In this document: piece after piece, positions 36,903 to 39,023 of the stretch
Layout: each line of letters opens with the position of its first letter
Numbering within the stretch: the first letter of the stretch is position 1
NCBI GenBank assembly: GCA_015057305.1
Contig: SVES01000002.1
Coordinates: 1-64,000, forward strand
DNA: 64,000 nt
Reading direction: 5' to 3'
Source of the DNA: Pseudobutyrivibrio ruminis
GTDB taxonomy: Bacteria; Bacillota; Clostridia; Lachnospirales; Lachnospiraceae
Made by a program: the position numbers and the translations under genes
The notes under the pieces: generated by a model
What the model was told of the DNA's origin: nothing
What the model saw: the letters and a program-made list of their open reading frames with translations, nothing else
The model's database searches: none

Positions 36903-37412
36903 ATGAGCTTACTTGCAGATTGGCAAAAAATTGCCTACAATCAGAATCAGTCACAGGCTGATTTACAGAGATTTTGGCAGAATTATTTTCTCTTAGAAAA
37001 GGGTATTTACGAGCAGCTTTTAGACGACCCTGATACTGAAGTTAAGGGCACAGTTAAGGAGCTTGCTGAGAAGTATAAAATAGAAGTTATGCCTATGGTT
37101 GGTTTCTTGGACGGTATTAATGAATCACTTGTTACTCCAAACCCAATCGAGACAATGGATGAGAACACAGAGGTTTCTCTCAAATTTGACAAGGAAAAGC
37201 TTTTCAAGAACATGATTGATGCAAAGGCTGATTGGCTTTATGGTCTTCCACAGTGGGAGAAGATCTTTGACGAAGAGACTAGAAAGTCTCTTACAAAGGA
37301 AGCTAAAAATATGCATACAATTATTCGTTCTGAAAAGAAGGTTGGACGTAACGATCCATGTCCTTGTGGTTCAGGAAAGAAATACAAGCATTGCTGCATG
37401 AACAAAAAATAG
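36903..37412 (+). CDS. SEC-C motif protein
   Basis: A 169-aa protein. Residues 1-145 are mostly helical ([31 protein letters not shown]) and have no name I know. The C-terminus is a clear SEC-C zinc-binding motif, [18 protein letters not shown]. This motif occurs at the end of SecA and in many stand-alone proteins that bind zinc, ribosomes or SecB. The upstream neighbour is a secreted hydrolase and GGAAGG precedes the ATG, so co-transcription is likely. A strong terminator follows. Confidence 0.88.
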
Positions 37413-37419
37413 TATTTTG

Positions 37420-37446
37420 ACGCATCTCCTAGGAGGTGCGTTTTTT
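37420..37446 (+). terminator. Intrinsic terminator after the SEC-C gene
   Basis: A 9-bp stem with one G-U pair (37420-37428 with 37433-37441) around CTAG is followed by TTTTTTAATTTT. It ends the nlpC-secC transcript and stands only a few bases before the large inverted repeat. Confidence 0.88.
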
Positions 37447-37453
37447 AATTTTA

Positions 37454-38077
37454 GTTACTATTCACACACACTGCTTGTGGATATGTACTTGCCGTGCCCC
37501 TGGCCTCACACCCCAGTAGGGAAATCATTTGAGCAGATTTGTAGATTATCTTTATGTGTATAATCTTGCATATGTAGGTGTACTTACACAGCTTTTACAA
37601 TTCTAAGGACATGTATGATGAGGACGGACAATATTGTTGTAATAATCATCTAGTCTTAACTAATTTTGTATATTACTATTTGCTGATACATTCACTAAGT
37701 AGAACTAAAAAGAGATATTTGTATGGAAATTGCACCGTGGCACATTCAACATCGTGTTTCAACGTGACCACTGCTGCCGCCATCGTAGCGGCAGCTGCAA
37801 TTCCATATCAAATATCTCTTTTTGTTCTACTAAGCTCATTCCAAAGCAAATAGTAAATATACTAAAATTAGCTTAAGACTGATGATTCTATAAGTTATAG
37901 AATGTCCGTCCTCAGCATACTTGGACGAAAGAATTGTAAAACTTTGTAAGAACACCTATAAATAAATATGCAAGATTCCACATTTAGATAATCTAAAATC
38001 TGCGATTGTTTCCCCCTACTGGGGTGTGAGGCCAGGGGCTCGGCAAGTACATTTTCTGAGATTGTGTGAATAGTAAC
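37454..38077. repeat. 624-bp full-length imperfect inverted repeat, candidate large structured RNA
   Basis: The gene-free region holds one giant palindrome. Paired blocks, outside to inside: 37454-37468 with 38063-38077 (15/15); 37483-37521 with 38014-38052 (38 of 39 complementary); 37620-37630 with 37903-37913 (11/11); 37700-37734 with 37796-37829 (nearly complete with single-base bulges). The intervening segments also align along both arms with mismatches and indels. The apex (37735-37795) branches into a 4+3 bp stem (37737-37743 with 37764-37771) and a perfect 8-bp hairpin (37773-37780 with 37788-37795). There is no convincing ORF and no clear target-site duplication. It could be a large noncoding RNA or a non-autonomous palindromic element. 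Confidence 0.85.
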
Positions 38078-38098: not shown

Positions 38099-38127
38099 TT
38101 GACATAAGAATTAATAAATAGTAAAAT
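38099..38127 (+). promoter_or_regulatory. Promoter of the zinc-ribbon membrane protein gene
   Basis: TTGACA (38099-38104) and TAAAAT (38122-38127) are separated by 17 bases, 33 bases before the start codon and about 20 bases outside the inverted repeat. Confidence 0.8.
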
Positions 38128-38159: not shown

Positions 38160-39023
38160 ATGTATTGTAAAATTTGTGGTAAAGAGATTTTAAATGATAA
38201 TAGATTTTGCTATTACTGTGGTACTGATTTGCGTAAAGCAAAGGCATCTAAGAAAAAGGGCGTGAGTATAGCTATTGCAATTGTTCTTATGCTAGTGATT
38301 GGCGGCGGTAGTGTCTTTGCTTACGTTTCTTATACAAATGAAAGTAATATTAAAAAGATAAGCTCTGAAACCTCTAAGAAGCATAAGAATAAGTCAAAAT
38401 CCAAGATATATGATGATTACGAGGATTATGACTATGATTACTCATATTATGATGAGGATTACTTTGACTATGATTATTATGATGACTTTTATGATTACGA
38501 TTATGATGATGATGATTTCGAAAGAGATTATGATATGGAGGCATCAATTGCTGAGAAGCTTACAGTAGATGCTACAGATATGAGTGATAAGACATTGTAT
38601 TATTCATATGATGGTAAAACAAAGGCTGGCTCATATTGGGAGTTTTTGGATGATAAGAACTGTAAGCTGGTTTTTGAGGATGGTGGTTATTATGAGGGAA
38701 CTTATACTGTTATGGAAGGTGAGATTGGCATGTATTACACCGAGTTAGGGTACCCTGAATATGGCCTTACATATGATGAATTAAAAAGTGCCGTGGATGC
38801 TAATAAAGAGGATTTTGATAATTGCAATGATTATGTTGTTTTAGTATTTGATAATCTTATTGAATATGCATATGATGGAACAGTTGTTGATGACGAAGCT
38901 GTTGACAGAATATTGTTTTACGGAGCAACCTTTGACGAAGAGGGGGATACCCTATATGAATTAGTTGGTGGTAATTCCATGGAATATTATTATTTTATAG
39001 ATTTTAAGGATGATACATTTTAA
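38160..39023 (+). CDS. Zinc-ribbon single-pass membrane protein with an Asp/Tyr tract
   Basis: A 287-aa protein. An N-terminal zinc ribbon has four cysteines (C3, C6, C17, C20), then a basic linker, a transmembrane helix (about 33-56), a Lys/Ser-rich linker, an extreme Asp/Tyr tract (about 82-125, almost only D and Y with few other residues), and a C-terminal beta-rich domain (about 130-287). The topology puts the zinc ribbon inside and the rest outside. The family is not one I can name; many Lachnospiraceae proteins share the zinc-ribbon/TM start. The ribosome site GAGAGG is well placed. Confidence 0.8.
   Translation: MYCKICGKEILNDNRFCYYCGTDLRKAKASKKKGVSIAIAIVLMLVIGGGSVFAYVSYTNESNIKKISSETSKKHKNKSKSKIYDDYEDYDYDYSYYDEDYFDYDYYDDFYDYDYDDDDFERDYDMEASIAEKLTVDATDMSDKTLYYSYDGKTKAGSYWEFLDDKNCKLVFEDGGYYEGTYTVMEGEIGMYYTELGYPEYGLTYDELKSAVDANKEDFDNCNDYVVLVFDNLIEYAYDGTVVDDEAVDRILFYGATFDEEGDTLYELVGGNSMEYYYFIDFKDDTF

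Follow-up and report, generated by a model that had tools for sequence, protein, structure and literature searches.

Covariation of paired bases is a standard proof of a functional RNA structure, and long DNA palindromes are unstable in model bacteria (SbcCD). Among the closest described systems to the locus treated here is the TwoAYGGAY motif, which Rfam holds under RF01731 as a 168-nt Cis-reg RNA. The passages of Weinberg et al. (2010) on this motif judge it to be probably an RNA and probably not cis-regulatory, and place it in the human gut, gamma-Proteobacteria and Clostridiales.

The present locus lies in a stretch of 64,000 nucleotides from Pseudobutyrivibrio ruminis, which is called the window in this report. 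Its TwoAYGGAY match forms the apex of a palindrome at 37454-38077. We regard this palindrome as a member of a family of dispersed DNA hairpin elements that are non-autonomous, with a probability of roughly 0.6, and the best reading is that the element is very large for its kind. The features of the locus are as follows.

36903-37412, + strand: upstream gene, encoding a SEC-C motif protein
37419-37446, + strand: intrinsic terminator that belongs to the SEC-C gene and lies outside the element
37454-38077, no strand assigned: the whole palindrome, this copy of the giant hairpin element (inverted-repeat scan, fold and arm-versus-arm alignment)
37454-37466, + strand: left terminal motif GTTACTATTCACA, the outermost pairing block
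37454-37523, no strand assigned: left outer arm, locus-specific, partner of 38010-38077 with 86% arm identity, containing the 38/39 block 37483-37521
37524-38009, no strand assigned: unit common to other copies in the genus, with approximate limits (sequence matches)
37684-37845, - strand: apex, Rfam RF01731 TwoAYGGAY, 49.5 bits (gathering score 43)
37737-37771, - strand: second apical hairpin, whose loop is a shortened AYGGAY (ACGAT), read from the sequence
37773-37795, - strand: first apical hairpin, with an 8-bp GC stem and a shortened AYGGAY loop (ACGAT), read from the sequence
38010-38077, no strand assigned: right outer arm, containing the block 38014-38052
38065-38077, - strand: right terminal motif GTTACTATTCACA
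38099-38127, + strand: promoter-like site, outside the element
38160-39023, + strand: downstream gene, encoding a zinc-ribbon protein

Structure of the palindrome and its apex

An earlier note, made from the letters of the window, had described a 624-bp inverted repeat that folds into one hairpin, and this description proved to be real. The palindrome is near-complete: the minimum free energy of the 624 nt is -328.3 kcal/mol versus -141.7 (sd 5.7) for 20 dinucleotide shuffles (z -32.8), and the identity between the two arms is 76.6% with gaps (E 4e-108). The inverted-repeat scan found again the 38/39 block 37483-37521/38014-38052 and the 11/11 block 37620-37630/37903-37913 that had been reported. 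The exact 15/15 terminal pairing also holds (90% over 20 nt by the scan, the last 15 exact by eye), and the pairing around the centre is present up to the apex, including the apical hairpin with the 8-bp GC stem. The outer stem is composed of 70 + 68 bp around the unit at about 37524-38009; the limits of the unit are approximate, as most of the long matches run from query positions 65-73 to 552-566, and a few from 49-55 or to 580. An internal loop, which is kept in relatives, interrupts the palindrome at 37684-37699 and 37832-37850. The sequence CATTC is found on both arms of this loop in the same sense, and again in an apical hairpin; the CATTC internal-loop sequences are possible candidates for recognition sites.

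The flanking terminator and promoter-like site are both present as described, the former at 37419-37442 plus a T tail and the latter at 38099-38127 with 11/12 matches. The locus is also gene-free, as had been claimed: the longest ORF wholly within the element has 91 aa and a GTG start, and no Pfam family was found at E<=1 for this ORF or for two others (84 and 65 aa) that extend beyond the limits of the element. No T run directly follows the stem, and a TTTTT on the + strand starts 6 bases beyond it (by eye).

Three Rfam matches were obtained up to E 10, and none of them belongs to OLE, GOLLD, ROOL or HEARO, in agreement with the earlier note. The apex, on the other hand, matches RF01731 over model positions 1-168 of the covariance model; its 49.5 bits exceed the gathering score when a permissive filter is used, while a fast filter misses the match. 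Such a match to a described family had been named beforehand as evidence against a new class of RNA, and that suggestion is withdrawn. Both apical loops in the window are ACGAT, one base short of the exact loop of RF01731, and exact loops are found in other copies, e.g. ACGGAC twice in L135 (by eye). When 8 other loci were scanned with RF01731, the 5 with giant palindromes scored 61-69.

Copies, shared unit and outer stems

In the genome that contains the window, blastn gave 69 matching pieces at E<=10, several of them at contig ends; the window copy, hits on either strand and short chance hits are all counted in this number. The pieces comprise full palindromes of 690, 668 and 738 bp plus shorter derivatives, and blastn DNA matches were found in 23 of the 29 genomes of the genus. 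A 33-base apex pattern occurs in 57 stretches of genome contigs. Fifty-three of these are in Pseudobutyrivibrio, and the remaining four are in Lachnospiraceae bacterium AC2012 (two), Butyrivibrio fibrisolvens 16/4 (one) and a Lachnospiraceae MAG (one). Forty-eight loci from other genomes (L029-L076), which are best or picked matches with two loci entered twice, were inspected for palindromes: 47 carry one of 298-868 bp, longer than 500 bp in 42 of them, where some outer ends are too long (including the one behind the 868-bp length of L039), and L048 has no palindrome. The motif in the genus is mostly the apex of dispersed palindromes of 520-870 bp. No copies were found on plasmids, phages or viral contigs in searches for matches, one of them for the exact pattern, and carriage of the element by these was set aside. 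The idea that copies are extensions of flanking genes was also rejected, as the overlaps between stem and coding end in L008, L034 and L039 were interpreted by eye as chance extensions of the self-alignment or as insertions at stop codons.

A clear division is seen between the inner and outer parts of the copies. In P. ruminis DSM 9787 (G002) and its sister genome G003, nine other copies, representing six loci of which three are present in both genomes, share 478-488 bp with L064; the shared limits in L064 fall at positions 84-88 and 563-567, within 4 bp. The orthologue L071 matches L064 from end to end. Between loci, the outer arms are 48% alike (shuffled, 45%) and the units 91% alike (42 paralogue pairs). 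The unit forms a palindrome of its own, bears the TwoAYGGAY apex and lies at the middle of the outer stem. The outer arms are nevertheless 81-100% self-complementary despite the lack of kinship between loci. This constant unit within locus-specific hairpins suggests either settlement at the tips of hairpins or conversion of old copies, and the shared units could reflect gene conversion between such copies. Three more copies of about 750 bp in the genome of the window share the ends and the outer stem too (GTTACTATTCACGGATAT), and the relatives found in G006 and G010 carry GTTACTATTCACG at their ends and are 752 bp long. The GTTACTATTCAC ends recur in part of the copies, and the remaining copies have different, unrelated ends.

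Beyond blastn, the RF01731 model matches 27 of the 29 Pseudobutyrivibrio genomes, with 0 to 49 matches per genome (G001 has 0 model matches, yet 2 DNA matches), and 63 of the 397 sampled genomes of the family, which represent 56 of 334 genera; no match was found in 14 control genomes. Among 30 family loci (the best match of each genome), 27 have a palindrome centered on the motif, and three have none so centered. The length is 219-430 bp for 26 of these palindromes and 675 bp for the remaining one. Some of the short family palindromes (L248, L252, L256 and partly L232) end in a recurrent motif near AGGATTCGGGTGTCAAAAGG. This motif is possibly a second kind of end in Lachnospiraceae loci (among L230-L259).

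Covariation of the arms and the paired molecule

The earlier note had proposed covariation of the arms as a check for RNA. Strong covariation was indeed found, and the strand preference of an RNA was not. Among 28 non-redundant cores (the remainder of 40 full-length elements after near-identical ones were dropped), changes on both sides occur in 72 of 104 pairs, and the double-changed cells number 540 versus 165.5 when shuffled and at most 67 when slid. The structure used for this count was chosen by RNAalifold with G.U allowed; the G.T/A.C test on the arms omits the apex. Fifteen pairwise comparisons were made, and in each of them divergence is lower at paired than at unpaired sites. Double changes total 138 against about 19 expected, a number estimated by a rough formula from the fold of a single sequence; four of the 15 comparisons have none. 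The double changes are scattered in L067/L075 and L032/L033, and lie in runs in L135/L207 (five pairs drawn along the stem).

A one-strand RNA would tolerate G.U, and G.T appositions should therefore exceed A.C ones. The two are about equal: 251 G.T versus 263 A.C in 51 genus copies, which include orthologues and are not all independent, with 1,245 other mismatches and a lean of 23 copies to each side and five even; and 66 versus 66 in the arms of 27 family copies. The consensus energies (alifold) of the two strands are -110.6 and -110.5, with G.T at 2.5% and 2.4%. As a positive control, 30 of 30 T-box leaders from the genus fold better in sense, by a mean of -14.0 kcal/mol (30 loci from 11 genomes, 11 over and 19 under the Rfam cut-off). 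The T-boxes took the place of tRNAs, of which only 4 were found, with the sense strand better in 2. For individual cores, the sense strand has a slight folding advantage (20 of 28, mean -4.3 kcal/mol), and 23 of 28 have U.G on that strand at one apical pair, columns 230/237. The tendency is reversed for whole elements, of which 16 of 40 fold better in sense, and family apices show hardly any (18 of 30). The lean of the cores and the U.G pair hint at some RNA-level constraint. Overall, the sequence comparison supports the view that the arms are kept paired as DNA, or else equally on either strand. Complementarity without wobble, together with paired changes, would fit templated correction between extruded arms, and would also fit a role on both strands.

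Inversions, losses and synteny

Twelve pairs were first picked for a test of inversion, and then all pairs among 51 elements of at least 450 bp were compared. Fourteen pairs match on both flanks, and 11 of them align over most of the element: five, such as L034/L053, are inverted relative to the flanks and six are not. The orientation thus flips in place in five of the 11 full-length orthologous pairs, between species. In the other three pairs (L030/L042, L042/L051 and L047/L203), the alignment is weak or confined to the apex, and the two members may have been inserted independently.

The upstream SEC-C gene was matched in all 29 genomes, and the hairpin stands beside it only in the window genome; no hairpin of the same kind occurs within 1.5 kb of this gene in the 28 others, three of whose loci end at a contig end. 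Single syntenic copies had been named by the earlier note as the mark of an RNA; the copies are many and show no synteny at this locus, and a single-copy new ncRNA was rejected on these grounds. In a test of 11 loci between G002 and G003, from which four loci filled in both genomes were left out, five sites are empty with contiguous or nearly contiguous flanks, and six gave one-sided, rearranged or contig-end matches. At two of these five sites, stretches of 19 and about 32 bases that resemble one outer arm are left, as after a deletion; gain and loss are therefore not separated, and insertion is not proven. At one empty site, that of L070, the sister genome has a terminator hairpin where the element would stand. 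L012 was considered as a pre-insertion state and discarded, as its centre appears by eye to have been deleted at ATGT. The flanks of L068 and L073 are exchanged (G002:C14:14280-25492 versus G003:C1:1134549-1135375), as if about 11 kb had been rearranged between the two copies.

Target duplications, insertion sequences and other repeats

The earlier note had expected a mobile element to show many copies with target duplications, and only the former were found. A duplication of at least 4 bp occurs in 1 of 19 GTTAC-ended copies, which include 192-bp and 35-bp ones; with a shuffled mean of 0.67, this is the chance level. The sequence TTTACAAA beside L002 was considered by eye as a target duplication and rejected, as it is not repeated elsewhere. 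An autonomous partner was sought in the 29 genomes as an interval of more than 900 bp and less than 4 kb between exact 13-mer ends, a scan that imperfect ends would escape. One interval is a hairpin hit by an IS110-type element, another is a small hairpin holding an IS4-like element, and another contains a tRNA but no ORF that reaches 100 aa. The idea of an IS bounded by GTTACTATTCAC was rejected: the intervals of 1.7 kb and 2.3 kb represent an IS4-like element that has ends of its own (near CAATGTCATTAAGTTAAG) in the small hairpin and an IS110-type element in an apical loop. No transposase or recombinase is tied to the hairpin element, and we count this against the reading as a DNA element.

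IS elements were found by eye in several hairpins: an IS110-type element (PF01548, PF02371) in the second apical loop of a copy in G013 (L197, G013:C197), and IS4-like elements (PF01609 in the copy scanned), which occupy apical loops and a small GTTAC hairpin in G028 (L226, L228) and, in G012 (L216), a terminator loop of which 11 bp are duplicated. Hairpin tips are apparently landing places for IS.

Two other repeats were encountered. One is a second multicopy element of 192-194 bp with the same GTTACTATTCACAGT ends, found at L126 1501-1694 (G000:C12:104275-104468) and in L199, L200, L208, L209 and L210. It is distinct from the giant hairpins, has two internal hairpins whose stems differ yet stay paired (by eye), and gave no Rfam match in L199 or L200 at E<=0.01. 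Another is a repeat of about 75 bp (CTGTAGGYATCAAGCTC...GGCTTGTARCCGTAACAG) in L313 and L319, where it directly precedes the junction to the neighbouring gene. It lies within terminator-like stems that differ between the two genomes, and is a small-scale example of a hairpin within a locus-specific one.

Alternative explanations

The palindrome may be read into RNA from either side and function between neighbouring genes as a bidirectional terminator or a protector of mRNA 3' ends. The orientation of the flanking genes bears on this. According to an ORF heuristic, applied to the loci with 700 bp and ORFs on both sides, the pairs are convergent at 10, divergent at 4 and co-directional at 21 of 35 genus loci, and at 7, 3 and 15 of 25 family loci, respectively. 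Convergent pairs thus exceed divergent ones, in favor of such a role, but most of the classified copies lie between co-directional genes. Several copies begin within about 60 bases of an ORF end, a terminator-like hairpin stands just after the same gene in several other genomes at one locus (by eye), and the hairpin that replaces L070 points the same way; a role of the RNA on both strands would also give the same G.T/A.C symmetry. Nevertheless, the window copy comes after a complete terminator of its own and has no T run directly after its stem, and a terminator does not need a shared unit of 480 bp with a conserved apex. We consider this explanation unlikely.

A slightly smaller chance is given to a chromosome-organising repeat, i.e., a REP/BIME-like site that is bound by gyrase, by a nucleoid protein or by some other factor and is retained for that role. 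It agrees with the conservation of the apical hairpins and of sequences in the internal loop (CATTC on the two arms, for example) and with the wide spread over 56 of the 334 sampled genera, whereas the number of copies by the model swings from 0 to 49 per genome within the genus, and even G002 and G003, which are sister genomes, are not alike in their copies.

A large structured RNA of one strand, with the TwoAYGGAY motif as its apex, is the most doubtful reading, because, despite the Rfam entry, the published opinion that the motif is probably an RNA, the strong covariation and the prevailing apical U.G pair, no wobble preference exists in 51 + 27 copies, the consensus folds are equal on both strands where T-boxes are one-sided, 5 of 11 pairs show an inversion in place, and the hairpin at the window locus is not syntenic.

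A proposed mobile DNA hairpin and its possible mechanism

The many copies at unrelated places, the constant unit, the covariation that is alike on both strands, the inversions and the losses together support a DNA element better than an RNA gene. The earlier note had offered a non-autonomous palindromic element and a large one-strand RNA side by side; the many dispersed copies favor the former, and the latter loses ground through the lack of strand preference. No virgin site proves insertion. The mode of spread can only be inferred, since neither an enzyme nor target duplications were found, and no copies turned up on plasmids, phages or viral contigs.

The DNA hairpin element would work and spread as extruded DNA, either as a cruciform or as a hairpin on single-stranded DNA at the replication fork or during copying. 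It would be recognized by its shape together with the conserved apical hairpins and internal loops, would be mobilized by an enzyme supplied in trans, and would settle in hairpin-like intergenic spots near gene ends. During extrusion, a change in one arm would be repaired from, or copied to, the other arm, so that the arms stay complementary; quasi-palindrome correction is the concept behind such arm-to-arm repair. The loss of poorly paired copies would also keep the arms complementary. Recombination across the arms would flip the palindrome, and slippage at short repeats would delete it.

We further propose, at somewhat under even odds, that TwoAYGGAY is the tip of a hairpin-in-hairpin mobile DNA, which comes to rest on the tips of hairpins peculiar to each locus, moves or is copied in the folded state, and acquires through arm-to-arm templating a covariation that mimics that of RNA. 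If this is true, the covariation seen here arises without any RNA. Strong covariation without the strand preference of RNA means that the count of G.T versus A.C can tell DNA palindromes from RNA, and this count could re-sort other orphan families in Rfam. The many palindromes of 520-870 bp per genome also raise the question of how these bacteria replicate and keep such DNA.

Comparison with known systems

The apex of the window copy and its relatives resembles RF01731 in scoring above the gathering threshold across the full model. It differs in that the motif, a 168-nt RNA in Rfam, is here the tip of a far longer palindrome, mostly of 520-870 bp, and shows no strand preference; elsewhere in the family, the palindromes are shorter (219-430 and 675 bp). 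In the part of the literature covered by our search (passages of PMC2864571, PMC11701678 and PMC13155455), no description of the large palindromes was found. The tip of the element is thus already known as an RNA motif, and we regard the large palindromes around it as a new addition to the palindromic repeats of bacteria.

Among these repeats, the stem-loop and MITE-like ones (REP/BIME, ERIC, NEMIS and Correia) are likewise dispersed, non-coding, intergenic, palindromic and gene-free. The giant hairpins are several times larger, have an outer stem that differs at each locus and an apex with two conserved sub-hairpins, and show no target duplication. Invertible DNA flanked by inverted repeats is similar in that both orientations occur at orthologous places; here, however, the giant palindrome itself flips, and no invertase or its site is linked to the element. 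Finally, integron attC sites are also imperfect palindromes in which structure is conserved above sequence and unpaired features are conserved, and the giant hairpins are far larger than these sites.
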